Origin: Thermohalobaculum sediminis
GTDB lineage: Bacteria > Pseudomonadota > Alphaproteobacteria > Rhodobacterales > Rhodobacteraceae
Assembly (NCBI RefSeq): GCF_023487995.1
Contig: NZ_JAMFKN010000004.1
Span: forward strand, 186,001 to 250,000
Length of the DNA: 64,000 nucleotides
Direction of reading: 5' to 3'
The first letter of the stretch is position 1. Each line of letters begins with the position of its first letter. The notes under the pieces were generated by a model. That model had not been told where the DNA came from and did no database searches. It saw only the letters and a list, made by a program, of their open reading frames with translations. Position numbers and translations under genes: made by a program. Below, in pieces: positions 4,851 through 28,848 of this stretch.

Positions 4851-4866
4851 GCCAGCCTCGTCCGGA

Positions 4867-6636: not shown

Positions 6637-6806
6637 CGTTCAATCCCGCGGTTGGCCTCAGGGGTGCGGCCGCTGCCGGCGCCGCTGCGGACGGGTTTGC
6701 GCACAAGAGCCCCAGCTTGCAAGCATTCTTTCCCCCGCTGCGACACTGACGGCCGGCCAAGCCCGACAGCCTCTGCCGAGCAGCTTCCCAAGCCCCTGCG
6801 CCGCGT

Positions 6807-7661
6807 CTACACGAGTGGCAGTCCCTGCAGCGCCATCAATCGACCGGCGTTCTTGGCGAACCTGACCCGGTCCAGCGTGATCGCTGCCCAGATCAACCGG
6901 CGGAGGGCCTTCAGCCTGAGGCGAGCCAGATTTGTGGCTCGACTGTGTTTCTCGAGGAGATAAAGATAGGAGCGGGTGGCATGGTAGTTCTTCAAACGTA
7001 TCACCCGCGAGGAGGTTTGGGACTGATCCTTCTCGAAATGGAAGACCTGCGCTTTCGGCACGAGCACCGGGGGGCGCCCGATGCGCCGCAGGCGGAGACA
7101 GAGATCATCATCCTCGAGATAGAGAAAGATTTTCTCGTCGAACCCGCCAAGTTCGAGGAAGAGTTCGCGCTCGATCAGCAATGCCGCCCCGGACAGGAAG
7201 TAGATGGCACGCGGTGCCTCGCCGGGGTCGGCGATATAGGTCGATCCGCCGGTATCGAGCATGGTGCCCGCGCGAGGCGGGATGGGGCCCTCCGGCCCGG
7301 TGAGGCACGGCCCGTAGGCACCACCGGACGCTCCCATCTCTTCCGCCGCCCTCAGCAGCTCCTCTAGTGCGCCGTCGGTCAGCCGTGCATCCGGGTTCAT
7401 GAAGAAGATGTAGTCCGACCGCGCCGCCTTGGCCGCGATGTTGCATGCCGCGCCAAAGCCCGCGTTGCTCGGGTTCTCGATGACCCTGACATCAATATCG
7501 GTAAGATAGTCGGCAATCCTGCGATCGCTCGCATTGTCCACGACGATCTTCTCGGCCCAATCGGGCACCGATTGGAGCGCCTCACGGATGAGCAGTTCGC
7601 TGTTGTGCGTGATGATTGCGACGCAGACGCTGTGATGTTCTGGCGAAGTGGTGATGCTCAT
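6807..7661 (-). CDS. Family 2 glycosyltransferase, rhamnosyltransferase-like (WbbL type)
   Basis: Cytoplasmic inverting glycosyltransferase of 284 residues. The GT-A core starts at residue 10 (SVCVAIITHNSELLIREAL), with KIVVDNASD near 40, NAGFGAACN, the DxD-like metal site MNPDARL near 95, and FLYLEDDDLCLRLRRIG near 178 carrying the acidic catalytic pair typical of WbbL-type rhamnosyltransferases. The C-terminus is basic and amphipathic, suggesting membrane association. Neighbouring dTDP-rhamnose genes make L-rhamnose the likely donor, but donor and acceptor cannot be read from sequence. Same strand as the ABC exporter 170 bp downstream, possibly one transcript. Confidence 0.8.
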   Translation of the reverse strand: MSITTSPEHHSVCVAIITHNSELLIREALQSVPDWAEKIVVDNASDRRIADYLTDIDVRVIENPSNAGFGAACNIAAKAARSDYIFFMNPDARLTDGALEELLRAAEEMGASGGAYGPCLTGPEGPIPPRAGTMLDTGGSTYIADPGEAPRAIYFLSGAALLIERELFLELGGFDEKIFLYLEDDDLCLRLRRIGRPPVLVPKAQVFHFEKDQSQTSSRVIRLKNYHATRSYLYLLEKHSRATNLARLRLKALRRLIWAAITLDRVRFAKNAGRLMALQGLPLV

Positions 7662-7983
7662 GCCAACGCTGCCCTACTCAGTCCGAAGCCCAGATGCGCG
7701 CAAATAGCTCGAGGAGTCCACTCTGTGATCGGAGACAAAGAGATTCTAGGACACGTGGGCCTCGCTGTTCGACTAAACGCTCCAACTGGGCCGACGCAAG
7801 GGGGGCTCTAAGGGCGAAGAAGGGGCAGGGTCACTTTAAATCGACGCTCAGGAACGAGCTGACCAACTATGAAATCGTCTAGTCGCAGAACGAAGCCTAG
7901 GCTCCGTGGACAAACCTTGGCCTGCTGCCGGTCTCGTGGACACCGAGCTAGGGTGTTTCAGGGAACCGGAGGATTGGAATGCG
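7662..7983. other. Non-coding stretch ahead of an IS3 remnant
   Basis: About 320 bp without a supportable gene, AT-richer than most of the window. It should contain the promoter of the minus-strand glycosyltransferase. From about 7908 (GTGGACA) the sequence resembles the terminal region of an IS3-type element leading into the orfA remnant. Confidence 0.4.
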
Positions 7984-8268
7984 ATGAAGGAAGTTCAGCC
8001 GCGAGTTCAAGCTTGAGGCGGTGAGGCTGGTAAGGGAACGGGGCGTTGCCGTTGCGCAGGCGGCCCGAGATCTTGATCTGCACGAGAACGTGCTGCGCAA
8101 ATGGATCAGGAGTTCGCTACCGATGCGCAGCACGCCTTTCCCGGCCATGGTCAAATGAAGCCGGAGCAGCTCGAGATTGCTCGGCTCCGGAAGGAAGTCG
8201 CGAAGCTGAAGGCGGAGCGCGACATCCTAAAAAAGGCCGCGGCCTTCTTCGCGAGGGAAGCGACATGA
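7984..8268 (+). pseudogene. IS3-family orfA, frameshifted remnant
   Basis: Encodes the helix-turn-helix protein of an IS3-type element: KFSREFKLEAVRLVRERG and LDLHENVLRKWIR in one frame, then EFATDAQHAFPGHGQ and IARLRKEVAKLKAERDILK in the next. Two lesions are visible: an extra A just after the ATG at 7984, and a missing base at about 8110 where ATCAGG runs into AGTTC. The last part ends in an ATGA overlap with orfB, as in intact IS3 elements. Confidence 0.7.
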
Positions 8269-8621
8269 AGTTCGCCTTCATCGCGAAGCACCGGAACATC
8301 TGGCCGGTGGCATGGCTATTCGACGCGCTGGATGTCTCCCGGTCGGGCTTCCATGCTTGGCTCAACCACAGTCCCAGTGCCCGCTCCTGGCACGATGAGG
8401 GGCTCCTCGGCGTTATCGACCGGAGCTTCAGGAGCAGCGACCGCACCTACGGTGCTCGACGCGTCTGGGACGACGTTCTGGCCGAGGGGCTTTCCTGCGG
8501 CCTGCACCGTGTCGAGCGGCTGATGCGGGAGAATGGGCTGCGTGCCCGACCGCGGCGGCGTGGGCTGCCGAAGGACACAGGCGAGCGAGCGGCAGTGTCG
8601 GACATCATACTTCGGGACTAA
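8265..8621 (+). pseudogene. IS3-family orfB transposase, truncated after about 110 residues
   Basis: N-terminal part of an IS3 integrase: MKFAFIAKHRNIWPVAWLFD, YGARRVWDDVLAEG and RVERLMRENGLRARPRRRG are characteristic of the HTH_21 region. An intact orfB has about 270-290 residues and a DDE catalytic domain; here homology stops at about 8600, before the first catalytic Asp. The following bases can be read in another frame as SGLNI plus stop, which resembles the C-terminus of IS481 transposases such as the one at 20252, so the break may be a junction with another element. Non-functional. Confidence 0.7.
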
Positions 8622-8680
8622 ACATCTAGGTCCCTGCATCGTCCGGTTTCGCGGGCGCAGATCCCGGGCCGCCCGGACAG

Positions 8681-9823
8681 TCAGGGACGCGACGCGACGG
8701 GTCTCCTGCGGACGAACCGGTGCAACTTCATCATCGGCTGTTCAAGCCAGTAGAAGCTCGCCGTGGCCGCGACGCCAGTGACCAAAAGCACGGCCGCGAT
8801 CGTGATGGAGGCCGCGTCCGGTCGGGAGAACCCGGCCTCTCCGAGAGCGGTGAAGAGAGGCTTGCCGATGACGAGGATCACGAAGGGATGAATCAGGTAC
8901 AGACCGTAGCTGATCTCCCCGAGGAAGACGGTGACCCGATTCACGAGCACGGGAAACGGCTTCAGAGCGAGCGCCACCACCATGACCGTCAGAATGAAGC
9001 CGATGAGCGGCCGCAACGCGGGCCAGCCCCCCACCCTGACCTCGAACAGGCCGTGGCGCGTTCCGAAGACGAGCGCCAGCGCGCTGGACGCGAGGAGGAC
9101 GCCGGTGACCAGGGACGTCGCGCTGGCGTCCATCGACCGCACGCCAAGGTAGGAGTGGTAAGCGAGGATTCCGCCCGCGAAGAAGGCGAACTGGGTAGGG
9201 AAGGACAGCCAGTAGAAGTTCGTTTCGGGCAGTATCCGAAAGAAGACGTAGCCCGACGCAGCCTGAACGAGGACAGCCGCCACGAAGAACACCAATGCGC
9301 GCTTCAGGCTGGTCGTGCGGGCGACGATCAGCGGGAACATGGCATAGAAGATCATCTCGAGCCCGAGCGACCATCCCGCCGCGACAAGGCTTTCGTTCTT
9401 CGCGGGATCGAAGGGAAAAAGGAACGTCAGGTTGAGAAGGATGTCCTCGACGGGAGGCAGGCTCCATCCCTTGATGATGCGGCGCGCGATGTAGGCGAAA
9501 AGCATCAGGTAGAAGAGCGGTGCGATGCGGAGATAGCGTCGCCAATAGAAGTTCCCGACCGTATCCGTGACGCCGAGCCGGCCACTGTACCGCAGGCAAA
9601 GCGAGAAGGCGCTCAACGCGAAGAACAACGGCACGGCCATCGAGAAATAGCCCGTCCAGGCCGGCCACATCTCGAGCGCAAGGAGCGCGTGGAAGTGGTA
9701 GAAGATCACTGCCACGGCCGCGAAGCCCCTGAGCGTGTCGAGGCCGGTGATCCGCTCTGGCAGGCGGGGCTGCGGTGCCGAATGTGCGGAGCACTGCGAA
9801 GCGCTCGACGCCGTGTCAGTCAC
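8681..9823 (-). CDS. Acyltransferase 3 family membrane protein (OafA-like)
   Basis: Integral inner-membrane acyltransferase of 380 residues with about ten hydrophobic segments; family members add acetyl or other acyl groups to surface sugars. The catalytic region is at the N-terminus: ITGLDTLRGFAAVAVIFYH (residues 25-43) with the conserved His, then FYWRRYLRIAPLFYLML near 92-108 with the conserved Arg. There is no C-terminal SGNH domain. The GTG start at 9823 overlaps the stop of the upstream methyltransferase (GTGA), so the two are coupled. Probably O-acetylates the island glycan; the substrate is inferred from context only. Confidence 0.82.
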   Translation of the reverse strand: MTDTASSASQCSAHSAPQPRLPERITGLDTLRGFAAVAVIFYHFHALLALEMWPAWTGYFSMAVPLFFALSAFSLCLRYSGRLGVTDTVGNFYWRRYLRIAPLFYLMLFAYIARRIIKGWSLPPVEDILLNLTFLFPFDPAKNESLVAAGWSLGLEMIFYAMFPLIVARTTSLKRALVFFVAAVLVQAASGYVFFRILPETNFYWLSFPTQFAFFAGGILAYHSYLGVRSMDASATSLVTGVLLASSALALVFGTRHGLFEVRVGGWPALRPLIGFILTVMVVALALKPFPVLVNRVTVFLGEISYGLYLIHPFVILVIGKPLFTALGEAGFSRPDAASITIAAVLLVTGVAATASFYWLEQPMMKLHRFVRRRPVASRP

Positions 9824-10674
9824 CGAGCGCCCGGCTTCTGGACGATTACGAACGCCTGCCAGAACTTCGACGGGTCGTCCACGTAGTCGACGAGAGCAAA
9901 GTGTTCAGACCACGCGGTCCGGATGTAGGATTCGGGAATGCAGGCCTCACCGTAGACGTCTTCGCTGCGGTACGCGCCGCCGCCCGTAGGGATGTAGACG
10001 AACCGCCCCTGGTCGAAGATGTCGCGATACTCGGGAACCCGCGCCTTGTGCTTTGCCAGCGTGAAGTGCCAGTTTGATCTCGAGGTGTCCTCTATTCTCT
10101 CGATGAAGTCGAGAAAGCGGCGCGCTTCCGTCGTGAAGCCCATCATGCCGCCGGGCTTCGTCACCCGGGACAGTTCGCTCATCCAGTGGCCCGCGATCTC
10201 TTCGGGCAGGTGGCTGAAGACAGAGTAGGCACTGACGAAATCGAAGTGACCGTCGTCGAAGGGCAGGCGCCCCCTCGGCTCGATGCGGGTATAGGTTCCG
10301 GGACAGCCAAGCGCGCGACACACGGCCAGGATTTCGGGATCCACGTCGACGCCGTGGATGTTCGCGGGGTCGAAGTCATACCAGAAGATTCGCGGGAATC
10401 GGCCCCATCCGCAGCCGAAGTCGAGATATCGTGCATCCGGCGCAAGGCGCAGTCCGTGTCGGTCGAAGTAGGATCTGCACTTGCGATAAAAGGCGAAACC
10501 CTCATTCAGGGCAGCGCCATCGGCCGAGCCGATGAACTGGCGCTGGACCCGCCCGTGCGGGAATCTCGGCATCTCGAACCCATCGATCAGCGGTTCATGC
10601 ACGCTGCGCGACAGCAAGGCGAGCCAGTCATCGTCTTTGGAGAGCTTGAAGCGTTCCCTGGCGTTCTGGGTCAT
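9820..10674 (-). CDS. Class I SAM-dependent methyltransferase
   Basis: A 284-residue protein with a Rossmann-type SAM site: ARYLDFGCGWGRFPRIF (motif I, about residues 68-84), HGVDVDPEILAVCR (acidic loop, about 94-107), FDFVSAYSVFSHLPEE (motif IV, about 130) and ELSRVTKPGGMMGFTT. The ATG at 10674 follows GAGGTGCGAC at good spacing; the frame stays open further upstream only by running into the decayed cytidylyltransferase, which shows no homology to a methyltransferase N-terminus. It sits in a minus-strand run with another methyltransferase and an acyltransferase, so a sugar or glycan methyltransferase is plausible, but the acceptor is unknown. Confidence 0.78.
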   Translation of the reverse strand: MTQNARERFKLSKDDDWLALLSRSVHEPLIDGFEMPRFPHGRVQRQFIGSADGAALNEGFAFYRKCRSYFDRHGLRLAPDARYLDFGCGWGRFPRIFWYDFDPANIHGVDVDPEILAVCRALGCPGTYTRIEPRGRLPFDDGHFDFVSAYSVFSHLPEEIAGHWMSELSRVTKPGGMMGFTTEARRFLDFIERIEDTSRSNWHFTLAKHKARVPEYRDIFDQGRFVYIPTGGGAYRSEDVYGEACIPESYIRTAWSEHFALVDYVDDPSKFWQAFVIVQKPGAR

Positions 10675-10814
10675 GTCGCACCTCGGCATGGAGCGTCGTT
10701 CCCGCAGCCGGGTGGTGTTCCGCGCGACACGGGTAGAACAGGTAGTGAGGTTGTTATCTGGACGGGCGCGGTGCGGCAAGTGCCGATGCACAGGGGGAAC
10801 CGCAGCGTAGCGGC

Positions 10815-11545
10815 TCACACGGGCCGCTCCCCCCTCGCGATCTGGCGGGACATGAGGAACTCCACGATCTCCCAGTCGTGCGGATTGTCGATGTCGACCC
10901 CCCGCTCGTAGGGCAGGACCAGCGGGATGACCCGGCCCTAGTAAAGCGACCCGGCCCTCGTAAAGCGACCCGGACCGCTTCAGGTAGTCGGGCGCCGCGT
11001 CGTAGACGACGCCCACATGCTCGTAGACGACCGGCGCCTGCTGGCGGGCGAGCACGCCGCCCGGGAGCGGCTTCGAGACGTGCAGCGCGCCCGAGGCATC
11101 GGATTCCACGAGGTTGAAGTAGGGGTTCTTCCGCGCCTCGGTGCAGGACTCCACCATGTCCGGCCGCTCCCGCGCGAAGAGGTCGAGCGCGGCGTCGATG
11201 TCGCCCTGGAGCCTAAGCGGTTTCGTGCAGTCGAGGTCGAGGAACGCGGTCTCAGGCCCGACCCGCTTCTCCGTCTCGTCGAGCGCGTGCTGCCAGACGC
11301 CCCACTTGCCCGCCGTGTCGGTGGCGAGATGAGCCGGGCGGAGCCCGGTGTCCAGCGCCCCCCTTTGCCAGCGCATGGTCGCGCAGCACCTCGTCGTCCA
11401 TGGAGACGACCATGACGTCCATGCGCGGGCAGGCGAAGAGCTGGTCGAGCGATCAGTCGACGAGCGGCTTGCCGAGCATGGGGCGCGTGTTCTTGCCCGG
11501 CACCCCCTTCGACCCCTTCCGGGCCCCGATGTGTCCGATGATCAT
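10815..11545 (-). pseudogene. Acylneuraminate-type cytidylyltransferase (NeuA family), inactivated
   Basis: The recognisable protein begins MIIGHIGARKGSKGVPGKN with the CTP-binding motif of CMP-sialate synthetases, continues DQLFACPRMDVMVVSMDDEVL, AFLDLDCTKPLRLQGDIDAAL and NPYFNLVESDASGALH, and ends RGVDIDNPHDWEIVEFLM. It is broken three times: an in-frame TGA at 11453-11455 (probably once TGG), a frameshift in a G-run near 11366-11372, and a 19-bp tandem duplication at 10932-10969 that shifts the frame near the C-terminus. The reading is otherwise clean, so decay looks recent. Its start overlaps the upstream methyltransferase stop (ATGA), showing it was once a working operon member. Loss would stop activation of a nonulosonic acid or similar sugar. 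Assembly error is possible but would require three separate mistakes. Confidence 0.8.
10932..10969. repeat. 19-bp tandem duplication inside the cytidylyltransferase pseudogene
   Basis: Units 10932-10950 and 10951-10969 are identical except for one base (a/c at position 9 of the unit), and CCGG follows at once as the start of a third copy. Removing one unit restores the frame into the expected C-terminus, so the duplication itself is a disabling lesion. Confidence 0.85.
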
Positions 11546-12267
11546 GCGGCTCTCCCGCTCGACGATCCGGCGATCCCCACCCCGCTCTGGCTTGCGGTGA
11601 TCGCGATCGCGTCGGGGAACCGTAGGGTGTGGAACCGCACGCTCCCGAAGCCCGCCTCGAAGGGGTATCGCCAGGCATCCGCGCCGAACTCCGTCACCAC
11701 GAGATAGTCGTCCCGGAGGCCCTCGGCCTTGCCGTGATAGCTCGGCGGCAGACCCGCGCGGCTTCTCGTCAGGCGATCCACGATGATCGGCACCGTGTAG
11801 CAGAGGCTCCCGGTCGGCTTCAGCACCCTGCGGCATTCGCCCAGCGCGTGGACGAAGTTCGGTACATGCTCGAGCGTATCCGAATGCACGACAATATCGA
11901 AGGTGCCGTCCGGATAAGGAAGGCTGTGCATGTCCACATCCGGATACCGTGCGTCGACGTAGTTCGGCAGGCCTCGGAAGGAGGAGGAAATCGACGTTAC
12001 GTTCATGTCGAGGACGCGGAGAGCGGCCACCGCGGGGTCCTTGACCAGTTGCGCGATGGGCGCATCCTTTCCGATCGCGTCCTGCACGGCGAGCGCAAGC
12101 GCCATTCCCCGAAGGTTCGCGCCGCAGGACAGGCAGTGCATCCCCTGCTGGCGGTCGACGTACTCCCGCTCCCGCGGCGAAAGCTGCCACTCGTTCACCA
12201 AGGCGTCCCAGAGCACCTTGCGCTGGCCGAACTGGTCGTGGCCGCAGATCGAGCACCTCGTTTCCAT
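11542..12267 (-). CDS. SAM-dependent methyltransferase with N-terminal Cys-rich segment
   Basis: A 241-residue protein beginning METRCSICGHDQFG, a possible zinc-binding N-terminus with CxxC at residues 5-8 and a second one (CLSCG) near 47. The methyltransferase core follows: LRVLDMNVTSISSSFRGL (motif I is degenerate, lacking the usual GxGxG), FDIVVHSDTLEHVPN with the motif IV region, and ECRRVLKPTGSLCYTVPI. The start at 12267 follows GGGGGAGAGCT; upstream in-frame codons are in the intergenic region. Its stop overlaps the cytidylyltransferase start. First gene of the minus-strand run ending with the acyltransferase. Substrate unknown; the weak motif I leaves activity open. Confidence 0.75.
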   Translation of the reverse strand: METRCSICGHDQFGQRKVLWDALVNEWQLSPREREYVDRQQGMHCLSCGANLRGMALALAVQDAIGKDAPIAQLVKDPAVAALRVLDMNVTSISSSFRGLPNYVDARYPDVDMHSLPYPDGTFDIVVHSDTLEHVPNFVHALGECRRVLKPTGSLCYTVPIIVDRLTRSRAGLPPSYHGKAEGLRDDYLVVTEFGADAWRYPFEAGFGSVRFHTLRFPDAIAITASQSGVGIAGSSSGRAA

Positions 12268-12382
12268 AGCTCTCCCCCGGGAATTCGCGCGGTCACGGGC
12301 GCCTCCGTCCCGGCGGCCACCTAGCACCGGGAGGCCGTCGACACAACGCGGAACCGGTCGCGCGGATTGTCGAGAGCAAGAA

Positions 12383-12398
12383 TTGACAAGTTTGTCAA
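12383..12398. promoter_or_regulatory. Inverted repeat TTGACAA-GT-TTGTCAA in the promoter region
   Basis: Two perfect 7-bp arms are separated by 2 bp in an AT-rich patch 116 bp upstream of the methyltransferase start at 12267. TTGACA also matches a -35 element on the plus strand, and the symmetric arm provides the same hexamer on the minus strand. It may be an operator or promoter element for the minus-strand operon. Confidence 0.35.
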
Positions 12399-12474
12399 AA
12401 AATGGCGTGCGCTCTGGCCCGACCCCCTTGAACGGATCCACCTGCAATGTCGGCTGAGCCGAGAAGGAGGATCC

Positions 12475-12602
12475 ATGCCGAGGAAGAGACACAAGCCCGA
12501 GGAGATCGTCCCCAAGCTGCGGCAGATCGACGTTATGACGGCGCAGGGAACGCCATTGACCGAAGCGATCCGGTCGATCGGCGTGAGCGAGGTGACCTGG
12601 GC
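12475..12602 (+). pseudogene. IS3-family orfA N-terminal fragment
   Basis: Starts with a strong ribosome-binding site (AGGAGG) and MPRKRHKPEEIVPKLRQ, then TPLTEAIRSIGVSEVTW, the helix-turn-helix beginning of an IS3 orfA. After Trp-42 the sequence changes abruptly to an IS110 transposase in another frame, so at least half of orfA and all of orfB are missing. The bases from about 12418 upstream of the ATG resemble an IS left end. Confidence 0.7.
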
Positions 12603-12911
12603 CTGCCGGCTCTCGCTCAGTCGGCGCTTCTGTCGCTGGTCGCGCAACTGGAGAGCCTGGCGGATGAGATCCGCAAGATCGAACGCCAGCTCATGTCGTG
12701 GCACCGGCAGAACCAGACAAGCCAGCGGCTCGAGACGATCCCCGGCGTGGGCATCATCACGGCCACCGCGCTCGCGGCCAGTGTGCCGGATCCGTCCGTC
12801 TTCCGATCCGGTCGTCAGTTTGCAGCCTGGCTGGGCCTCGTGCCGCGGCAGAACTCGTCGGGCGGCAAGGAGCGACTGGGGCGCGTGTCGAAGATGGGGA
12901 ACGGCTATACG
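12603..12911 (+). pseudogene. IS110-family transposase, middle fragment (transposase_20 region)
   Basis: Reads LPALAQSALLSLVAQLESL, then LETIPGVGIITATALAASV with the helix-hairpin-helix-like motif, FRSGRQFAAWLGLVPRQNSS and GRVSKMGNGY. This is the C-terminal transposase_20 region of IS110/IS116/IS902 enzymes, without the N-terminal RuvC-like domain. Homology stops at GNGY; the residues normally following (RRLLVVGAT...) are found at 18610-18411 on the opposite strand. Confidence 0.75.
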
Positions 12912-12973
12912 TCAGCAATCGTGACACCCGACCACAACCAGCCAAACCGTTGCAATGAGGCGGGGTCCATATA

Positions 12974-12989
12974 CGTCCACACATGACAG
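12974..12989 (+). repeat. Left copy of a 16-bp inverted repeat flanking the giant glycosyltransferase
   Basis: CGTCCACACATGACAG is the exact reverse complement of 18136-18151; the match continues for four more bases after one mismatch. The two copies bracket 13297-18069. They may be the 3' ends of two oppositely oriented IS110 elements or the crossover sites of an inversion. Confidence 0.6.
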
Positions 12990-13081
12990 GGCCGTTCGAG
13001 AACGACGGCAGCATCGCCTTGAACTTTATGAAGGCTGTCAAGCGGGTGATGGCCGGCGAGTACATCGCGTGGCGGGCGTAG
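12983..13081 (+). pseudogene. Possible scrap of a serine recombinase
   Basis: A short frame reads PFENDGSIALNFMKAVKRVMAGEY and then diverges to a stop. This resembles the conserved segment of large serine recombinases that reads roughly FENDGS...LKALKR.MAAEYSREL. Only about 28 residues match, with neither catalytic domain nor zinc ribbon, so it is at most a relic of a recombinase or phage-like element. Confidence 0.35.
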
Positions 13082-13296
13082 TCGCGGATCCGCGCACTGG
13101 CCCCGGAACGGCGCGATCCGAGCGGCGCCGGCGCGGCCGCGCGCGCTCTCCAGCGTTGTGCCGAGGGGCGGAAACTGCTAAGCGGAACCGGTGGTCTTGG
13201 GGGCTCTGACTGCTGGTGGTGATATCGACTATTTGTCGCGTTCTCTTGCAGGAAAATAACAGAAAACGAGAGTCTCCGAAGTCGCTGCGGTGCAGA

Positions 13297-16200
13297 ATGA
13301 AAAGAACGCCTGTTGAATTTCCGAACCCCGATGAAAAACTCACGTTCACCGGGGAAAGATATGTGTCCGGGCACGAGGGGCCCACGCAGCACGCGCATTA
13401 CCACCGATATTTGTTCGCTCTACAGTTTTGCTCGGGCAAGGATGTTCTGGACGTTGCCTGCGGCGAGGGATACGGCGCGAGCTTGCTGGCCTCCGCCGCG
13501 TCCTCGGTTGCCGGGCTCGACGTCGATGGAGAGACGATCGCCTTTGCTCGCCGGAACTACGACAGAGACAACCTGACCTTCAGGCAGGGCGACGCGACGC
13601 GCATGCCGTTCGACAATGGCAGCTTCGACGTCGTCGTCAGCTTCGAGACGATCGAGCACTTTGCAGAGCACGAGGCGTTTCTGGCCGAGATCCGCCGTGT
13701 CCTCCGGCCGCGCGGGCTCTTGATCATATCGTCCCCGAACCGGCCGATCTATTCGGACAAGCCCGGATACGATAACCCGTTCCACGTTCGGGAGCTCGAT
13801 TTCGGGCAGTTCGATGAATTGCTGAAGACGCATTTCAAACATGTCCAGATGCTTGGGCAGCGCAAGATCTGCGGCTCGTATCTGGTGCCGCAGGAAGCGG
13901 ATGGTTCGGATCTCGCGCTCTTCGACACCGAGGATGGCCTGCGATACGCCCACGAAGACGGGTTCTGGTCCTCGGAGTATTTCGTCGCGCTGGCCTCCGA
14001 TTCCGCCCTCGAGCAGACCGCGGGTAGCCTCCTCTCGAATGACAGCTATGTCGGCACGCTGCATTCGGCTGCGCGATATTATGAGAGGATGCACAATGAG
14101 GCGTCCTCGCGAGCGAACGAGATCGAAGCGCGTCTGCGGCGGAGCGTCGAGCGCGAAGAGCAGCTCCAGGCGAACATTGTCGCGCGGATGGGCGATCTCG
14201 AGGCGCGGCTGGAAGCGGGCGCCGAACGCGATGAGCGCCTCTACGGGGCCGCGCTCGAGAGGATGGGCGACCTCGAATCCATGCTGCGACAGGCAGCCGA
14301 GCGCGCCGACGGGCTTCAGAGAGATGTGGTTCGCGGCGTTCAGAGCCTCGAAGCTCGTCTCAGGGAAGGTTCCGAGCGGGAGAAGCGGCTCCAGAGCCGG
14401 CTCGAGGAGGTCCAGTCGTCGATTCAGACGCTGAATTCACAGGTGGAGCGATCCCTGATGCTGCAGATTCCGAGGCTTGACGGTGGTTACATGAGGTCGC
14501 TTCGCGTGCGCCTGGAACCGGCGCTGCGACACCCAGTGAACGCCGCCAAGCGGCGCGCCTTCAGGGCCGGCCTGAAGGAGACGCTGGCGAAAGCCCCGAA
14601 GTCTCGCGGAACGTTGCGCCTTGGCGAGCAGCTCGAGCGTCTTGCCTGGCGGAGCGAGGCCGCTGTGCGGCATCCCTTCTCCAGCAAGAAACGGCGGAAA
14701 TGGCGGGCCGCCAACCATCCCGAGGTGCGCCCCGCGGTCGCGCCGGCGCGGGCGTCCCAGCGGGCCGCCGCGGCAACTTCCTCCGAAGTCGTGACCGCAC
14801 CCGCAGGCGGCGAGACGACGCTGCATGCCCGGCTGTTCGACCAGTGGGTGCACAACGCGATGTGCGAGTATCCGAAGTCGGACTTCGTCCCGCTGGCGCG
14901 AACCGCGCCCGCGGTCGCGAAATCCGACGTCTGGCTGATCGCCTATTATCTTCCCCAGTTCCATCCGATCCCGGAGAACGATGCCTGGTGGGGCAAGGGC
15001 TTCACCGAATGGCGCAACGTGACGCGGGCCTATCCGCATTTCGAAGGGCACTACCAGCCGCGGATGCCGGGCGAGCTCGGCTATTACGACCTGCGGGTGG
15101 TGGACGTGATGCGCCGCCAGGTCGAGCTGGCGAAGCTCTATGGCATCAGCGCATTCTGCTTCCACTTCTACTGGTTCGGCGGCAAGACGCTGCTCGAGAC
15201 GCCGCTGAAGAACTACCTTGAGAACAAGGACATGGACCTGCCGTTCTGCCTGTGCTGGGCGAACGAGAACTGGTCGAGGCGCTGGGACGGCAGCGAGCAC
15301 GAGATCCTGATCGCGCAGTCGCATTCGCCGGAGGACGATCTCGCCTTCCTGCGATATGTCGACAGGTACTTCCGCGACGAGCGCTACCTGAAGATCGACG
15401 GCCGCCCCGTCCTCACCGTCTACCGGCCGTCGCTGCTGCCCGACGCGGCCGCGACCGTGGCGCGCTGGCGCGACCTGGCGCGCGAACTCGGCTATCCGGA
15501 CCTCTATCTGATTGCGACCAACTCCTTCGCCTTCACCGACTACGAGAGCTTCGGCTTCGATGCCTTGTCCGAGTTCCCACCGCACCATGTGCGGGCGTCG
15601 AACGTGCAGGACGAGTTCGAGCTGTCCAAGTTCCGGACCGGCTGGCGGATTCGCTCGTACGCCGAGATCGTCGAGACGGAGAAGTCGCGCAAGGTCGTCG
15701 GCGCGACCGTCCATCCGGGGATCATGACCTCGTGGGACAACAGCGCCCGGCGCCCGGCGAACGGCGAGATCATCCACGGCGCCACGCCCGCGCTCTTCAA
15801 GGAGTGGATGAAACAGTGCTTCTCGCGCGCGCAGGCAAATCGCGCTGGCGAGCGGCTCGTCTTCGTCAATGCCTGGAACGAATGGGCCGAGGGCACCTAT
15901 CTCGAGCCGGACCGGAGATATGGCTACGCCTTCCTCGACGCCTGCGCGTCCGTCGTGCGCGAGCATATCCAGAACCTGCCCGTTCCGGTCGAGATCATCC
16001 CCGGCGCCCCGGAGTGGGACGAGGAAGCGAAGACCGTGCTGTTGTGCTCCCACCATGCGGGCAAGCAGATCTTCGGCGGAGAGCGGAGCTTTCTCGATGT
16101 GCTCCGCGCCCTCAGGGGGAACGGGTTCAACGTCGTCGTGACGCTGCAGGAAGCCACCAACGAGGCCTATGTCGACACGATCCGGGGCCTGGCGCAGGAG

Positions 16201-18069
16201 ATCCGCGTCTTCCCCTACAACCAGTGGACCGCCGACATGGCGGCGTCCCTCGCGTCCGAGCCCGTCTTCCGGGCGATCATCGAGGAGGCCCGCCCCGACA
16301 TCGTCTACGTCAACACGCTGGTCGTGGTCGCCCCGCTTCTCGCCGCTCGGATGTGCGGGGTGCCGAGCGTCGTGCATGTGCGCGAGATCATCAGCGAGGA
16401 CAAGGAGCTGCAGCGCCAGATCGGCCTCGATGCGGCGGCGATCGTGGCCCGGGTCGCCCGGTCGGCCACGCGCCTCATCGCCAACTCGAAGGCGACGGCC
16501 GGGTGCCTCGGCAGCTCGGCGGAGACGGATCTGGTGCCTAACGTGGTCGACGTGGCGGCGTTCGAGATGCCGAACGAGGTGGGAGAGAACGTCGTCTTTG
16601 GCCTGATCAGCAGCAACTATGCCAAGAAGGGCATCGAGGACGTGGTCGAGCTGGCGCGCCTTTGCCGCGACCGCGCGCCCGCCGCGCGCTTCCGGATCAT
16701 CGGCCCGCTCTCGCGGCCGCTGGTCCAGGACTACCTTGGCGGGACCGCGCCGGTGCCGGACAACCTGGAATTTGTAGACTACACGGCGTCTCCGCAGGAG
16801 GCGCTGGCCGGCGTCAACGTCGTGCTCAACTTCTCGCACTTCAAGGAGTCCTACGGGCGCACGGTCCTCGAGGGGCTGGCGGCGGGCCGCCCTTGCATCG
16901 TCTATGACTGGGGCGCTCTCCCGGAGCTGGTCGAGCACGGCGTGAGCGGGTTCCTGGTACCCTACAGGAAGACGGGCGATGCGGTCGAGTTCGTCAATGC
17001 GCTCTGCGACCCGAAGACCATCCTGCGGATGGGCAAGGCGGCTCGCGAGCGGGCGCAGTCGATCTCCCGCTGGGAGGCCTTCTCGCAGGGGATCGGCGAT
17101 GCCGTCCGCGCGGCGGTGGCGGCCGGCCAGACCGATGCCCGTCCCTATTCGCAGCTGCGCGAGGAGCGGCTCGCCCCTCTCCGCGACCGGCAGATCGACA
17201 TCGTGATCTGCGTTCACAATGCGCTCGAGGATGTCAGGCGGTGCCTCGACTCCGTCGTCCGCCATCGCGGTCCGCAGCACCGGGTGATCCTGGTCGACGA
17301 CGGCTCGGGCGAGGAGACGAAGGCCTATCTTGCCGACTTCGCGCGGTCGAACGACTTCGCGACGCTCCACCGGAACGAGACCGCCCAGGGCTACACCCGC
17401 GCGGCAAATGCCGGTGTCGGTCTCGCGACGGCGGAGTTCTTCGTCCTCCTGAACAGCGACACGGTGGTGACCGCCGGCTGGGCCGAGAAGCTCCTCGACG
17501 CGGTCTCGTCCGTGCCGGGAGCGGGCGTCGTTGGACCGCTCTCGAACGCCGCCAGCTACCAGTCGATCCCGGGCGTCACCGGCACCTCGACCCAGACGGC
17601 GGTCAACGAGCTCCCGGACGGGTTCTCGGCCGACGACATGAATGCGTGGTGCGAGGCTCGCAGCCCGGCGTCGCCGCCTTGCGTGCCGATGGTGCACGGC
17701 TTCTGCTTCGGCATCACGCGCGAGGCGTGGAACGCCGTCGGCCCGTTCGACGAGGGCGCGTTCCCGCGCGGCTATGGCGAGGAGAACGACTTCTGCTTCC
17801 GGGCCGTCGATGCGGGCTTCGCCCTCGTGGTCGCGACGCACACCTACGTGTTCCACGCGAAGTCCAAGAGCTACTCGGAAAAGAAGCGCCACGAGCTGTC
17901 CGAGATTTCCCAGGAGAAGCTCTACGAGCGCCACGGGAGGGACCGCTTCATGAGCGCGATCGAGGTGCTCGCCGAGCAGCCTGTCCTCGAGCGGCTCCGC
18001 GGCGAGTCGGCCGAGTTGTGGCGGCGGGAGCCGGAGGCGGACCGTTCGGGATCGACCGCGGTCGCTTGA
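13297..18069 (+). CDS. Giant polypeptide: methyltransferase - coiled coil - WbsX-like - GT4 - GT2 glycosyltransferase
   Basis: A 1590-residue cytoplasmic enzyme that probably assembles and modifies a surface glycan. Residues 40-195 are a SAM methyltransferase (DVLDVACGEGYGAS, FDVVVSFETIEHFAEHEAF, RRVLRPRGLLIISSP). Residues 260-390 are a long heptad-rich coiled coil with repeated R-x-GDLE/ER units. After a basic linker, about 540-890 is a WbsX/GT99-like domain (YYLPQFHPIPENDAWWGKG, FCFHFYWFGGK, NAWNEWAEGTYLEPD). About 910-1270 is a GT-B GT4 domain (GGERSFLDVLRAL, FSHFKESYGRTVLEGLAAG). About 1298-1570 is a GT-A GT2 domain (IDIVICVHNALEDVRRCLD, LLNSDT, GYGEENDFCFRA). The ATG at 13297 gives the best N-terminus; a GTG at 13216 in the same frame is possible. 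The architecture recalls Geobacillus WsaE plus the coiled-coil ruler of WbdD. IS110 pieces lie on both sides. Confidence 0.85.
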   Translation: MKRTPVEFPNPDEKLTFTGERYVSGHEGPTQHAHYHRYLFALQFCSGKDVLDVACGEGYGASLLASAASSVAGLDVDGETIAFARRNYDRDNLTFRQGDATRMPFDNGSFDVVVSFETIEHFAEHEAFLAEIRRVLRPRGLLIISSPNRPIYSDKPGYDNPFHVRELDFGQFDELLKTHFKHVQMLGQRKICGSYLVPQEADGSDLALFDTEDGLRYAHEDGFWSSEYFVALASDSALEQTAGSLLSNDSYVGTLHSAARYYERMHNEASSRANEIEARLRRSVEREEQLQANIVARMGDLEARLEAGAERDERLYGAALERMGDLESMLRQAAERADGLQRDVVRGVQSLEARLREGSEREKRLQSRLEEVQSSIQTLNSQVERSLMLQIPRLDGGYMRSLRVRLEPALRHPVNAAKRRAFRAGLKETLAKAPKSRGTLRLGEQLERLAWRSEAAVRHPFSSKKRRKWRAANHPEVRPAVAPARASQRAAAATSSEVVTAPAGGETTLHARLFDQWVHNAMCEYPKSDFVPLARTAPAVAKSDVWLIAYYLPQFHPIPENDAWWGKGFTEWRNVTRAYPHFEGHYQPRMPGELGYYDLRVVDVMRRQVELAKLYGISAFCFHFYWFGGKTLLETPLKNYLENKDMDLPFCLCWANENWSRRWDGSEHEILIAQSHSPEDDLAFLRYVDRYFRDERYLKIDGRPVLTVYRPSLLPDAAATVARWRDLARELGYPDLYLIATNSFAFTDYESFGFDALSEFPPHHVRASNVQDEFELSKFRTGWRIRSYAEIVETEKSRKVVGATVHPGIMTSWDNSARRPANGEIIHGATPALFKEWMKQCFSRAQANRAGERLVFVNAWNEWAEGTYLEPDRRYGYAFLDACASVVREHIQNLPVPVEIIPGAPEWDEEAKTVLLCSHHAGKQIFGGERSFLDVLRALRGNGFNVVVTLQEATNEAYVDTIRGLAQEIRVFPYNQWTADMAASLASEPVFRAIIEEARPDIVYVNTLVVVAPLLAARMCGVPSVVHVREIISEDKELQRQIGLDAAAIVARVARSATRLIANSKATAGCLGSSAETDLVPNVVDVAAFEMPNEVGENVVFGLISSNYAKKGIEDVVELARLCRDRAPAARFRIIGPLSRPLVQDYLGGTAPVPDNLEFVDYTASPQEALAGVNVVLNFSHFKESYGRTVLEGLAAGRPCIVYDWGALPELVEHGVSGFLVPYRKTGDAVEFVNALCDPKTILRMGKAARERAQSISRWEAFSQGIGDAVRAAVAAGQTDARPYSQLREERLAPLRDRQIDIVICVHNALEDVRRCLDSVVRHRGPQHRVILVDDGSGEETKAYLADFARSNDFATLHRNETAQGYTRAANAGVGLATAEFFVLLNSDTVVTAGWAEKLLDAVSSVPGAGVVGPLSNAASYQSIPGVTGTSTQTAVNELPDGFSADDMNAWCEARSPASPPCVPMVHGFCFGITREAWNAVGPFDEGAFPRGYGEENDFCFRAVDAGFALVVATHTYVFHAKSKSYSEKKRHELSEISQEKLYERHGRDRFMSAIEVLAEQPVLERLRGESAELWRREPEADRSGSTAVA

Positions 18070-18410
18070 GGTCGGCGAGGCCGTCACGTCGGCGAGGTCG
18101 ACGAACGGTCCGCGTCGCGGCGCCACTCGCCGGCGCTGTCATGTGTGGACGGCTCCGGTTGTGAAAGGGTTGAGTTGAGCGGGTGGCGATCGGAGCGGGG
18201 AGCGGTCATGTGTCCGGCCTTTGTGCACGGTGCATTTGACCGCTGGCCCTGATGAGGTCCGCGTACCGAGTCCCGATCAGACAACCGAGCTTTGACGCCC
18301 TCACAGCACCTCGGGGTGTCCCGGCAGCGATCCCGGTCGATCATCATCACTCACGTCTGCCCTTGCATCCTTTCGCCGCGGCCTGTGGCGCCGCGGTTCG
18401 TCGCGCCATC
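18070..18410. other. Non-coding region between the giant glycosyltransferase and an IS110 fragment
   Basis: No gene is supportable. It includes the right inverted-repeat copy at 18136-18151 and a related GTCATGTGT at about 18208, and probably represents the 3' untranslated end of the IS110 element whose coding remnant starts at 18411. Confidence 0.5.
18136..18151 (-). repeat. Right copy of the 16-bp inverted repeat
   Basis: CTGTCATGTGTGGACG is the exact reverse complement of 12974-12989, with the near-match extending outward from the methyl/glycosyltransferase side. It lies 67 bp after the stop codon of the giant gene. Confidence 0.6.
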
Positions 18411-18610
18411 TCAGGCCGCGGTCGGGGCCTCGTAACTTTCACCTCGGGTCAGCAGCGCCCATGCCGTCCGAGCGGTCTTGTTGGCGATCGCGACGGTGAA
18501 GAGCCGCGGTGGCTTGCGTTCGAGGAGCGATCGCACCCAGGCGCCGGTTCGGGTGTTGATGGTTGGCGCTCGTCGGGTGACGGAGGTGGCGCCGACGACG
18601 AGCAGGCGGC
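18411..18610 (-). pseudogene. IS110-family transposase, C-terminal fragment
   Basis: On the minus strand the frame reads [57 protein letters not shown] and stops at 18411. This is the extreme C-terminus of an IS110/IS116 transposase, beginning exactly where the plus-strand fragment at 12603-12911 ends (after GNGY). At 18609-18611 it abuts an IS3 orfB fragment. Confidence 0.7.
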
Positions 18611-18906
18611 GCGTCGCCTGGCACTACATCGCGCCCGGCAAGCCTACTCAGAACGCGTTCATCGAGAGCTTCAATGGAAGGCTCAGGGACGAGCTGCTCA
18701 ACGAGGAGATCTTCGAGACGCTCGCCGACGCAATGCGCCGGCTGCAGCTCCGGCGGCACGACTACAACCACGTCCGCCCGCATTCCTCCCTGGGCGGGCT
18801 GACGCCCGCCGCGCGCGGTGCGCTCGAGCTGGATGAAGGCTTCAAGCCCGGCGCGCTCGCAAAGACCAACAGTCTGGACTATCAACCCGCAGGACTCTCC
18901 ATTTGA
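18609..18906 (+). pseudogene. IS3-family orfB C-terminal fragment
   Basis: Encodes the last third of an IS3 DDE transposase: [20 protein letters not shown] (with the catalytic Glu), [20 protein letters not shown] and [15 protein letters not shown], then a natural-looking C-terminus and TGA. The first two catalytic Asp residues are missing. The IAPGKP form is closer to IS407-group elements than to the element whose remnants lie at 7984-8621. Confidence 0.75.
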
Positions 18907-18924
18907 TCGAGAGACCCTGAGGGC

Positions 18925-19995
18925 TCAGGTCAGTCGAAGGAGCCTGTCGTAGCGCGGGAGGACCGCGGACTTCGAGAAATGCTCGTGCGCGACACGGTGT
19001 CCCGAAACGGCGTACCAGTCGCGCGCGGACGCATCATGCATCAGCCCGTGGATCGCTTCGGAGAAGGCCCGAACGTCGGTCGGATCGACATACACCGCGA
19101 AATCGCCGCTGACTTCGCGCAGGCCGCCCCGGCCGGAACTGATGACCGCCGCCCCGCCCGCATGTGCTTCGAGCGCCGTCCGTCCAAAAGGCTCGTTCCA
19201 GAGAGACGGCACGAGCGCGATGGCGGCGTGCTCCATAGTGCGTTTCACGACGTGAAAGGGCTGCTCGGTCAGAACGTCGATTTTATCGTTGTGGGCGATC
19301 AGCCGACGGGCGGTTTCGGCGTAGTCGGGTTGCTCGGCGCATCTCGACAGGATGAATTTCGCGCGCCATTCCGTTTGTTCCTTCAGAATCTCGAGGGCGC
19401 GAACGGCTTCGAGCACGCCCTTCTCTGGCACACACCGGCCGGCAAAGACGATTTCCTTCCTGCGCTCGGGGTTAGGGTTCCACTCGGAAAAATCAAGAAA
19501 GTTGTGAATCGTGATCGACTTGGGCCCGAGTTTGCCGAAGTGCTCGGTGAAATTATCTCTTACTGAGTCACTCACAAAGACAAAATGATCCAGGCAATTG
19601 AGCAGGTAGCTTTTGTAGATGCGCTTGAAGAAGCTCAACCGCTTATGCCGGATGTAGTTGTGACGGTGCAGTATGATGGCCCTGTCCCGGACCGCCCGGC
19701 AAAGGCGCACGGCAGTCGGAATATGCTGATGGACGACGATGACCCGGGGATCGAAACGCCGCACGAGGTCCACGCAGAATTTCACGCCGTCTCTGGACGA
19801 CATCCCCGCCGGCATCTCGACAAAATCTATGCCGGGCAGGCGCGTCCCGCTAGTCATGCCGCAAACAACAGTTTCGGCTGAGAAAACACTGTGACGCGCG
19901 AAATCATACGCCACCAAGTCGATCGACGATGCGTGCTCAATACTGAAGTCCATATTGCGTGGAAGAATGATAAGGACTTTATATTTTTGGTTCAT
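18925..19995 (-). CDS. Family 4 (GT-B) glycosyltransferase
   Basis: A 356-residue retaining glycosyltransferase acting at the cytoplasmic side of the membrane. The C-terminal donor-binding domain is clear: FAGRCVPEKGVLEAVRALE (about residues 185-203) and ALVPSLWNEPFGRTALEAHA near 263-282 with the EPFGRTALEA active-site motif, then GGAAVISSGRGGLREV. The N-terminal acceptor domain has the basic, aromatic segment HRHNYIRHKRLSFFKRIYKS. It is visibly less GC-rich than its neighbours, as expected for transferred polysaccharide genes. Donor and acceptor unknown. Flanked by an IS3 fragment downstream and an IS481 relic upstream. Confidence 0.8.
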   Translation of the reverse strand: MNQKYKVLIILPRNMDFSIEHASSIDLVAYDFARHSVFSAETVVCGMTSGTRLPGIDFVEMPAGMSSRDGVKFCVDLVRRFDPRVIVVHQHIPTAVRLCRAVRDRAIILHRHNYIRHKRLSFFKRIYKSYLLNCLDHFVFVSDSVRDNFTEHFGKLGPKSITIHNFLDFSEWNPNPERRKEIVFAGRCVPEKGVLEAVRALEILKEQTEWRAKFILSRCAEQPDYAETARRLIAHNDKIDVLTEQPFHVVKRTMEHAAIALVPSLWNEPFGRTALEAHAGGAAVISSGRGGLREVSGDFAVYVDPTDVRAFSEAIHGLMHDASARDWYAVSGHRVAHEHFSKSAVLPRYDRLLRLT

Positions 19996-20251
19996 GCCGG
20001 CCTCTGTACAGCATTCTATGGCGTTGGGTCCGATGCTGCGATGTGGGGTTCCACCAACGTGTCGGCGGCGAGGCGCCGCTTCCGCCGCAGCGCGTTGATG
20101 GTGACCGAGTTTGCGTCACGCGTTTCGGGGATTGCAGGACGCCCACTCGCGACTGGGATCATCACCTTCTTCCACCGTTTGGTTGCGGGTTCAATCCTAA
20201 GCTGTGCCGCTGCGGCGGGTTTTCCGATGGGCCGAACATCATGGACGCGAA

Positions 20252-21241
20252 CTAGATGTTCGGTCCCGGGATGAGATGGTCTGGATGACGTCTGAAGCGG
20301 TGCGGCTCTGATGTCCATTTCTGGGAGACGAACTCGAACGGCGTGAGGCCTCGAAGCGTCTTCAGGCGCCTGGCGAAGTTGTAGGCGTCAAGGAAGGTGC
20401 TGAGATGCGGACGCAGCGCGTCGTGCGTCTCGTAATCGTATCTGCGCACGGTCGCCTCCTTGAGCGTTCGGTTCATCCGTTCGACCTGGCCGTTGGTCCA
20501 CGGGTGGTTCGGCTTGGTGAGCCGGTGCTCGATCTCGCGGTCGGCGCAGGCGAGCTCAAAGGAGTGGCAGCGGAACAGCTCGCCGGCGGCTCTCATGCGC
20601 CTGATCTCCGCGGGTCGCCAGCCGTCGCCCGTCGGCTCGGTGAAGTGCGTGCCGTTGTCCGTGAGAACGGTATGGATCCGAAAGGGAACTGCCCCTGCCA
20701 GGCGGCGCAGAAAGGCGGCGGCGGCGCGACGCGTCACCCTCTCATGCAACTCGGCGAAGGCGAACTTGCTGGTCCGGTCGATGGCGACGAGCAGATAGAG
20801 CTTGCCCTCCTCGGTCCGGACCTCGTCAATGTCGATATGGAACAAGCCAATGGGATAGGCCTTGAACGCCGCCTTCGGCTTCGTCCCCTCCAGCTCCGGC
20901 AATCGGCTGATCTCGTGACGCTGGAAACAGCGATGAAGCGAGGAGCGGGTCAGATGCCGGATGGTCGCCTGGAGCGCGTAGAGGCAGTCATCGATCGGCA
21001 TAAGCGTATGGCGGCGGAAGGCAACGACCAGCGCCTCTTACTCCTTGCTGAGAACCGACGAGCGGCCTTCCTTCGGCCCCATCGGCGCATCGTCGACGAT
21101 CTCGCGCTTGCGCCACTTCCCCACCGTCTTCGGGTTGATCCCGTGCCGCCGGCTCAGCTCCGAGATCGAAGACGACGGTCGCTGTTTCGCAGTTCGGACG
21201 GCGTGCGTGGTCGCGGCGCTTCCGTGGAGTGTCTCGCCCAT
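20252..21241 (-). pseudogene. IS481-family transposase interrupted by a stop codon
   Basis: Two segments in one frame: a helix-turn-helix N-terminus (ISELSRRHGINPKTVGKWRK) up to an in-frame TAA at 21038-21040, then the rve-type catalytic domain (YPIGLFHIDIDEVRT with the first Asp, HTVLTDNGTHFTE with the second, TKPNHPWTNGQVERMNRTLK with the Glu) to the stop at 20252. Joined length is about 330 codons, normal for IS481. The TAA replaces what is probably a Glu codon, so the product is truncated unless translation restarts at the ATG at 21001. Confidence 0.75.
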
Positions 21242-21296
21242 AGCCCCTCGCTGGAGTGACGGCAGAACGATACCCCATTATACTCCGGGACTAATA

Positions 21297-22454
21297 CCAG
21301 CGCTCATTGATCAGAACTCATGCGCCCAAGTCCGTCGCCCGATCGACGAGATGCGCCACGGCTGCTCCATGAGCTTGTTCCAGCTGTCGCAGCAGTGGGC
21401 AATGATGTCGTCGTCGTTCCTGAAGACGCGGTTCGAGAGCCAATTGTCCCGGAGGAACTGCCAGACGTTCTCGACGGGGTTCAACTCCGGCGACCTCGGC
21501 GGGATCGGGACGAGGGTGATGGTGTCGGGGACGGCGAGTTTCGATGACGTATGCCAGCCAGCCTGATCGAGAAGCAGAATGGCGTAGGCGCCTGGCGCGA
21601 CCTCGGCATTGATGAGCTTCAGATGCTCTGCCATGGCGTGGGTGTCGCACCAGGGCATGACGAGGCCTGCGCCCTTTCCCTGCGCCGGGCAGATGGCGCC
21701 GGAGACGTAGGCCCATTTCGTGCGCTGATCGTGAGGCGCACGAGGGCGGGTCCCGCGTCGCGCCAACCGTCTCGTCAGCTTGTTCTTCTGGCCGACCCTT
21801 GCCTCGTCCTGGAACCAGATCTCTATCGGCGGCCAGCCATGCTCGATACGGATGGCGGTGACGACGCTGCGGAAGTTTTTTTGAACTCCGCGAGGGCGTC
21901 CTCGTCCTGGGCGTAGTGCTGCGGGCGGGCCGAGAGCTTCCGGAATCCCATGGCGCGCAGCCCCCGCCCCAGAGTCTGGCGGCTCACTGAGACGCCCATC
22001 TCATCATGCGCCCATTGGGCCAGATCGACCAACCGCCAACGCACGACGCCGTCCAGATAGGGTTTCGGCCCTGCCTCTATCGCCGCGGCCAGCTTCGTGC
22101 GCTGTTCGTCCGTCAGGATCGGCCGCTTGCCCCGCGCCTTCCGCGTCCTTAGCGCCTCCGGGCCGCCGACGTTGAAGCGCAGCACCCAGTCCCGGACGAC
22201 CTGGAGCCCGACCCCGCCCGTCCGGGCCGCCTCGCCGCGCGACCCGCCGTCGAGGATCACCGCCAGCGCCAGCAGCCGCCGCGTCTGATCCGCGTCGTCA
22301 CTGTCGCGCGCAATGCGCCGCAGATCATCTGCAGAATGATCCGATCGCAAGGGAAGCGCTGCCGCCATGGAAAACCTCCTCCGTTTTCCATGGTGAATCA
22401 CCCTCGCGACCGGCGGAGAACCCCTTCCGGAGAGTCTGAGTCAATGAGCCGCGG
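21297..22454. mobile_element. Complete IS630-family element with TA target duplication
   Basis: Terminal inverted repeats CCAGCGCTCATTGA (21297-21310) and TCAATGAGCCGCGG (22441-22454) match at 11 of 14 positions when inverted, and each is flanked by TA (21295-21296 and 22455-22456), the IS630 target duplication. Length is 1158 bp with one transposase gene in two frames. It lies about 140 bp downstream of the lptD stop and looks like the youngest insertion at the right edge of the island. Confidence 0.8.
21311..22368 (-). CDS. IS630-family transposase, two frames joined at an A7 tract
   Basis: The first frame starts at the ATG 22368 after GGAGG and covers the helix-turn-helix half (LLALAVILDGGSRGEAART, LSRQTLGRGLRAMGF-like region) to about 21877, stopping at 21823. 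The second covers the DDE domain (WFQDEARVGQKNKL, AILLLDQAGWH, PRSPELNPVENVWQFLRDN) to 21311. They meet at seven A residues (T at 21876-21882 on the plus strand), and a -1 shift there yields EFKKNFRSV and restores the conserved protein. A -1 shift at an A-tract is a known expression mode in IS630 elements, so this may be functional rather than broken. Confidence 0.75.
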
Positions 22455-22595
22455 TATAAACATCTGAGCGGGCGCGCCACAACATTGCGGGCACGACGCC
22501 TTGGCCGGTGAGGCGAAGGCGGAGCCGACCGCGCGCGCGTGCGGAATGTTCGCGGCCTTTCTCGTCCGCGGCTCGGGGACGCCCGCCGCGGCGGT

Positions 22596-24848: not shown

Positions 24849-24890
24849 CCCCCCGGATTCTGCGGCGGCCGCGCCGGGCCGCGCCCCCTT

Positions 24891-28840: not shown

Positions 28841-28848
28841 GGGGCCGC

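Follow-up and report, generated by a model that had tools for sequence, protein, structure and literature searches.

Can a single polypeptide extend, measure, and cap a surface glycan? This question is raised by one gene of the window, that is, the whole stretch of 64,000 nucleotides of Thermohalobaculum sediminis DNA that was analyzed, for which a preliminary description had suggested such a combination of functions.

Domain architecture of the gene product

The gene (positions 13297-18069, forward strand) comprises 1590 codons and a stop, and its translation displayed zero internal stops. By itself an open frame is weak evidence here, because the DNA is GC-rich and the antisense strand over 14437-18126 also holds an open frame of 1229 aa. 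A chance open frame was ruled out by homology to a gene of Agrobacterium pusense across the full length. Hence, the 1590-residue fusion in one lesion-free frame that had been claimed is confirmed by translation, Pfam, and homology. An alternative GTG start at 13216 would give a product 27 aa longer; the ATG at 13297 is favored because the first start codon of the Kaistia ORF L026 sits at the aligned place.

The encoded protein is made of a SAM methyltransferase, a coiled coil of about 125 residues, WbsX, GT4, and GT2, in this order. A Pfam domain search recovered a class I methyltransferase (Methyltransf_11, residues 51-144, E 5.3e-29), WbsX (PF14307, residues 547-882, E 2.7e-134), the GT4 halves inside residues 927-1252, and GT2 inside residues 1302-1525. 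The WbsX match reached 448.5 bits against a curated cut-off of 25.1 and covered positions 1-349 of the 350 of the model. The motifs were intact in all four domains, namely the SAM loop DVACGEGYG, the E-x-x-E of WbsX, the E-x7-E of GT4, and the NSDT and EEND of GT2; the meanings that we assign to the SAM loop, E-x7-E, NSDT, and EEND are presumed. The four catalytic domains of the preliminary description were therefore all found, but WbsX turned out to be related to GH99/GH71, and its transferase activity is putative. No kinase family was detected next to the head methyltransferase in the Pfam scan of the protein at E 0.01, and residues 165-260 are too short for a 223-residue kinase domain such as that of O7, which annotation also misses.

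No sigma-70-type promoter match was obtained, terminator matches numbered 2 against 2.5 expected, and nothing in Rfam matched window positions 1-25000. Meanwhile, a scan of viral_contigs gave two pattern matches and no relative. The coordinates of all features are given in Table 1.

Table 1 Features of the polysaccharide island and of its multi-domain gene, in window positions
Feature	Position	Strand	Basis
surA (island border)	start codon at 742	-	
Polysaccharide island, 21.9 kb, between lptD and surA	743..22595	.	Gene map, comparison of lptD loci
rmlC, rmlB, rmlD, rmlA (dTDP-L-rhamnose synthesis)	1422..4850	+	Each above one NCBIfam equivalog cut-off
MsbA-like fused ABC exporter, proposed flippase/exporter	4867..6636	-	Homologue at 47% identity close to the related fused gene of L024
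ORF with C-terminal methyltransferase, homologous to the C-terminally fused one of L024 and L025	9820..11376	-	Alignment
Whole gene, 1590-aa multi-domain polysaccharide assembly protein	13297..18069	+	Frame, Pfam, homology
SAM-dependent methyltransferase forming the N-terminal head (residues 1-255; SAM loop at 52-60)	13297..14061	+	Pfam, alignment with four relatives, motif
Coiled coil at residues 262-386 with a hydrophobic period of about 3.57 residues	14080..14454	+	Periodicity and shuffles
Four tandem 75-nt (25-residue) units forming the coil; relative to the first copy, the 47-nt cores show 64-70% identity	14123..14422	+	DNA repeat comparison
Basic RHP box 1 (residues 403-427), proposed to lie close to the membrane	14503..14577	+	Similar boxes in five relatives; putative role
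Basic RHP box 2 (residues 450-474)	14644..14718	+	Sequence; putative role
WbsX (PF14307), GH99/GH71-related by profile; its E862 and E865 (nt 15880-15891) fall on the E-x-x-E dyad of GH99	14935..15942	+	Pfam, profile search, motif
GT4 (GT-B) glycosyltransferase module with E-x7-E	16075..17052	+	Pfam, motif
GT2 (GT-A) glycosyltransferase module	17200..17871	+	Pfam, motifs
lptD (island border)	22596-24848	-	

Known systems and a proposed mechanism

Comparisons with WbdD and WsaE, made before, are apt as analogies, given the layout of methyltransferase, coil, and polymerase modules. E. coli O9a WbdD also combines a methyltransferase with a coiled-coil ruler (a role predicted for our protein), whereas it is separate from the polymerase WbdA and has a kinase, according to the available text of PMC5082667 and PMC3482155. 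In our protein, too, a methyltransferase is followed by a coil, but neither a kinase nor Wzt_C was found in our scans; the outcome for Wzt_C, the MsbA-like exporter, and the further methyltransferase ORFs of the island argue against a strict WbdD/Wzt reading. Among the 49 PDB matches of the N-terminal profile (E 1e-6), no molecule is named WbdD. Geobacillus WsaE likewise begins with a methyltransferase, joins it to two GT domains, and is linked to rhamnose, but the accessible part of its description (PMC2943079) mentions no coil and no WbsX.

Klebsiella pneumoniae provides two further systems, described in the available text of PMC11231755. O7 ORF6, whose layout was shown biochemically, reads methyltransferase-kinase-CBM-coiled coil-GT2-GT2. 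It shares with our protein the N-terminal methyltransferase, the central coil, two C-terminal GT modules, and rml genes in the cluster; it differs in its kinase and CBM-like domain before the coil and in its GT2-GT2 pair, and that text does not mention WbsX. The O7 cluster also has wzm/wzt, whereas no Wzt_C was detected in the genome of the window. In O12 WbbB, extension, measuring, and capping fall to a single polypeptide, as is predicted for our protein, but its terminator is a beta-Kdo transferase and not a methyltransferase, and again WbsX goes unmentioned there. The same source reports that the N-terminal part of ORF6 has alphaproteobacterial orthologues, some joined to GT modules, and that methyl-only capping occurs in O5. 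The principle of extending, measuring, and capping in one polypeptide is thus already known from O7 ORF6 and O12 WbbB (PMC11231755), which also rules out a protein without any known parallel. The preliminary description knew of no described enzyme with exactly this order; the kind of enzyme is known (PMC11231755), and the exact order recurs in A. pusense.

The combination with a hydrolase-like WbsX inside looks like a new variation on this principle. The open-access literature searched, which leaves most subscription journals outside, yielded no description of a putative WbsX barrel between a coil and GTs, of a kinase-free head in such a setting, or of a coil assembled from repeats in which relatives differ by entire tandem units.

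We propose, as the reading that we consider on balance to be probable, that the gene encodes a single-polypeptide polymerase-terminator with a methyl cap, a coil ruler, and MsbA-like export, and that its product is a surface glycan that probably contains rhamnose. Near the membrane, where the basic RHP boxes between the coil and WbsX would anchor the protein, WbsX, GT4, and GT2 would assemble the repeat unit on a lipid carrier. The coil of 25-residue repeats would hold the N-terminal methyltransferase away from these membrane-side modules, and only sufficiently long chains would be O-methylated at the non-reducing end, whereupon growth would stop. Export of the glycan would probably fall to the island's MsbA-like transporter and not to a Wzm/Wzt pair that carries a cap-binding domain. 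The donor, the capping, the ruler, the membrane contact, and the pairing with the exporter are what we infer in this proposal. In its favor are the intact domains and motifs, the periodic coil, and the biochemically shown layout of O7 ORF6 (PMC11231755).

A coiled coil built from tandem repeats

The periodicity of the coil, like the domain content and order, the intact motifs, the same-order homologue, and the rml genes, was seen directly. Residues 262-386 are charge-rich and contain 0 prolines and 7 glycines. Their hydrophobic power was 14.9 at a period of 3.45-3.65, which was reached in 0 of 5000 shuffles, and the highest power among 239 other 125-aa segments was 7.2. The coiled coil, which had been put at 130 residues, is hence borne out at about 125. 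In the coil protein, the self-match at 25 residues scored 126, with the 95% mark of the shuffles at 42, and 25 residues over 7 turns would presumably correspond to a heptad-heptad-hendecad pattern. By Pfam and periodicity, a terminator-type enzyme domain (the methyltransferase) is present at the distal end of the coil, and by Pfam, GT4 and GT2 are present on the other, C-terminal side; termination and polymerising activity are predicted. In the known cases in the available text of PMC11231755, the coil separates a terminator, at its far end, from the polymerase on the opposite side, and our protein has this geometry.

Fourteen distinct proteins with a head-related methyltransferase were surveyed for repeats, including that of the window and L125, whose methyltransferase is not N-terminal. 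Self-similarity behind the methyltransferase was at least twice the shuffle 95% mark in eight of them, marginal in two (L124 and L125), and absent in four. The eight include L119, whose repeat lies outside its coil as judged from sequence, and L122 and L123, with a repeat offset of 14 that heptad composition alone might yield. At the DNA level, the A. pusense coil carries a fresh duplication (two tandem copies of 75 nt, 99% identical), the coil of Kaistia L117 two tandem copies of 63 nt (94%), and L121 of genome G823 tandem copies at 54-nt spacing, while none were detected in L027 and L123 at the settings used. Tandem segments like DPFLHYLxxGxxEGRxP follow the head and coil in L119 and L117, as a further repeated module.

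No similarity was detectable by alignment between the coils of our protein and A. pusense, and the distance from the SAM loop to WbsX is 498 residues in the former and 499 in the latter (n = 2). This near-equality despite unrelated coils would fit a spacer of kept length and free sequence (n = 2; available text of PMC5082667). In four other relatives, whose polymerase parts differ or whose ends are not known, the distance is 353, 606, 400, and 369 residues. The shared order and distance in A. pusense and the tandem duplications in the coil DNA of relatives argue for the proposed mechanism; the equal spacing in a sample of two, the varying spacings elsewhere, and the relatives without repeats behind the head argue against it.

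These data bear on another reading, possible albeit less probable than the ruler, in which the protein is a synthase whose methyltransferase decorates repeat-internal residues, whose coil only oligomerises or recruits, and whose chain length is set elsewhere. The wide variation of spacing behind the heads would agree with it, as would the outcome for Wzt_C, which was found neither in the genome of the window nor in those of five relatives. L024 and L025 carry a C-terminal methyltransferase without a coil head, although this is of a different type, nearer to that of the ORF at 9820-11376, and methylation may accordingly not be tied to measuring. WsaE, with a methyltransferase and two GTs, showed no chain-length dependence in vitro (available text of PMC2943079). 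Against this reading, the methyltransferase and the polymerase modules have the coil exactly between them, a placement shared with O7 ORF6 and WbbB (PMC11231755), and the two full-length homologues differ by one residue in spacing with unrelated coils.

WbsX is kin to glycosidases

The WbsX alignment (A1) has 72 rows from 76 segments found; the copy of the window took the place of L001, and L031, L043, L063, and L078:2-991 were omitted. Its profile matched PDB sequences of four GH99 endo-alpha-mannanases, namely 5ngw (OpGH99A, 8.6e-08), 5lyr (2.3e-05), 4ad1 (2.4e-05), and 4acy (0.0074), the best match (5ngw) spanning only profile positions 139-331 of 344. The WbsX motif N-E-W-A-E-G aligns with F-N-E-W-H-E-G of 4ad1 and 5lyr, so that the dyad and its surroundings align in these two, while the aligned stretch of 5ngw is N-N-W-N-I-G and leaves the dyad unmatched there. 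The dyad residues, which we take to be E333/E336 in GH99 numbering, agree with the profile alignment to WbsX. Among the WbsX rows, the first E is kept in 70/72 and the second in 71/72. The exceptions are L036:8001-9023 and L077:1507-2514, with D for the first E in both and Q for the second in L077; the form with D resembles the dyad of GH71. The E-x-x-E pair comprises the catalytic residues of GH99 (available text of PMC11025385 and PMC12394665).

By profile and motif, then, WbsX is kin to the glycosidases of GH99/GH71 and retains the active-site pair. The label glycosyltransferase of PF14307 is unproven, because WbsX matches GH99 endo-mannanases and keeps their E-x-x-E. WbsX may perform hydrolysis, block transfer, or sugar-nucleotide transfer, and we also considered it as an ordinary GT. 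PF14307 was matched in many genomes in these searches, and no assay of a PF14307 WbsX was found in the open-access literature searched.

A retaining glycosidase or transglycosidase, trimming wrong or uncapped chains or moving blocks, would account for the GH99 matches of the 72-domain profile and for the conserved dyad. We regard this role as unlikely, although it is compatible with the main mechanism. The GH99 enzymes are hydrolases, whereas WbsX sits inside a predicted synthase; the relatives seen occur in GT-containing proteins or near rml genes, and the GH99 match is partial. That the L024 chain has two WbsX domains suggests that each makes a single linkage, as GT modules do. In addition, Burkholderia gladioli with a broken wbsX is phage resistant, from which its authors infer an altered O-antigen (available text of PMC13391952). 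Still less probable, in our view, is a self-correcting synthase in which a GH99-type barrel with its intact dyad would cut or transfer chains between the coil and the GTs, gain or loss of whole 75-nt repeats would tune length over evolution, and the MsbA-like exporter, in place of a Wzt domain, would recognise the cap.

Homologues and modular history

The order of domains, for which the preliminary description knew of no described enzyme, recurred in a search for same-order proteins. The A. pusense gene (L023:7998-12743, NZ_FNBB01000006.1) matches residues 2-1568, with 50% identity in the best segment, displays the Pfam order methyltransferase-WbsX-GT4-GT2, and has rml genes nearby; it differs in its unrelated coil. 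We know of no characterisation of this gene. L119, on a plasmid of Aminobacter SR38, has an equal order by class; its GT modules are not close to those of our protein, because the tblastn match (1e-30) is confined to residues 8-883.

Other relatives displayed different arrangements by Pfam. Kaistia L026 and Aminobacter HY435 L027 read methyltransferase-WbsX-GT2-GT4. Aminobacter ciceronei L025 reads WbsX-GT4-GT2-methyltransferase, and L024 has two WbsX followed by GT4-GT2-methyltransferase. Four Nitrospirae encoded GT2-WbsX-GT4-GT2, followed by a methyltransferase in L032 and L044, and Mesorhizobium L036 encoded WbsX-GT4-GT2. In many other relatives, also within the family of the window, WbsX stands alone or next to untyped parts. 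These genome searches are samples in which two to four candidates per genome were scored under E limits, and misses are not proof of absence.

In the WbsX tree, our protein pairs with A. pusense (98/95), whereas in the three-domain tree it groups with L024/L025 (93/97, not starred). The two trees give conflicting histories for methyltransferase-head and methyltransferase-tail proteins, which counts against the mechanism. The closest WbsX relatives come from Aminobacter (77%), a Bradyrhizobiaceae MAG (74%), and Agrobacterium (73%), while the best match in 292 order-level genomes (own genome excluded) was 52%; this contrast favors lateral gain.

A polysaccharide island with an MsbA-like exporter

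The gene lies in an island between lptD and surA, which are direct neighbors in 17 of the 19 lptD loci of other genomes; the remaining two have no surA match, one of them ending inside lptD. In the same-genus genome G241, the lptD and surA coding matches are 4 bases apart. Taken in 1-kb steps, GC content ranges from 0.58 to 0.69 within the island and from 0.68 to 0.72 over 23001-30000.

Upstream of the fused gene are rmlCBDA and the exporter, besides two methyltransferase ORFs, an acyltransferase, and a GT2; downstream there is a GT4. Among 34 genome_contigs loci with WbsX, at least one rml gene was nearby in 10 and at least three in 9, although these loci are mostly from Aminobacter and the rows are not independent. 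The exporter, of the MsbA kind, scores below the MsbA cut-off, and its homologue in the L024 locus lies one small ORF from the fused gene. The methyltransferase of the ORF at 9820-11376 is 40% (L024) and 37% (L025) identical to the fused C-terminal one. These associations suggest that the exporter and this methyltransferase may act with the WbsX-GT4-GT2 block. The upstream rml genes, their recurrence in relatives, and the exporter homologue beside the L024 gene argue for the proposed mechanism.

By profile search, Wzt_C (PF14524) was found neither in the own genome nor in any of five genomes of relatives (genome completeness not stated), while the same profile gave matches in 3 of 14 control genomes. 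ABC2_membrane had four matches, on other contigs of the own genome, which may hold another Wzm/Wzt type. G241, in which lptD adjoins surA, has a Wzt_C protein (G241:C30:304133-304486, L130); the genus may differ in export systems. The known cap-recognition step is thus left without a counterpart, which counts against the mechanism. Our protein is not filed as a member of the WbdD/WbbB/O7 ORF6 system because the cap-binding Wzt domain was not found; by analogy, it probably works like a coiled-coil terminator/polymerase system.

Transposase pieces (HTH_21, Transposase_20, rve_3, rve, and DDE_3 with winged helix) occur at 8046-8621, 12447-12986, 18478-18906, 20252-21001, and 21311-22401. At 11453-12256 (reverse strand), the end of an ORF matches only positions 4-27 of 217 of the CTP_transf_3 profile, weakly (E 0.0031), and this cytidylyltransferase gene looks damaged. 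Such relics and damage, and the lack of a promoter match, weigh against the mechanism and would, with the splitting of lptD from surA, suit a recently arrived and now idle passenger in a decaying island, which we find very unlikely, as the 1590-aa frame and the checked catalytic motifs are intact and rmlABCD score above NCBIfam cut-offs.

Significance

The joining of WbsX to a coil and intact GTs makes the proposed polymerase-terminator a compact system in which the chemistry of WbsX can be probed directly. The same protein offers a direct comparison of the number of coil repeats with chain length.
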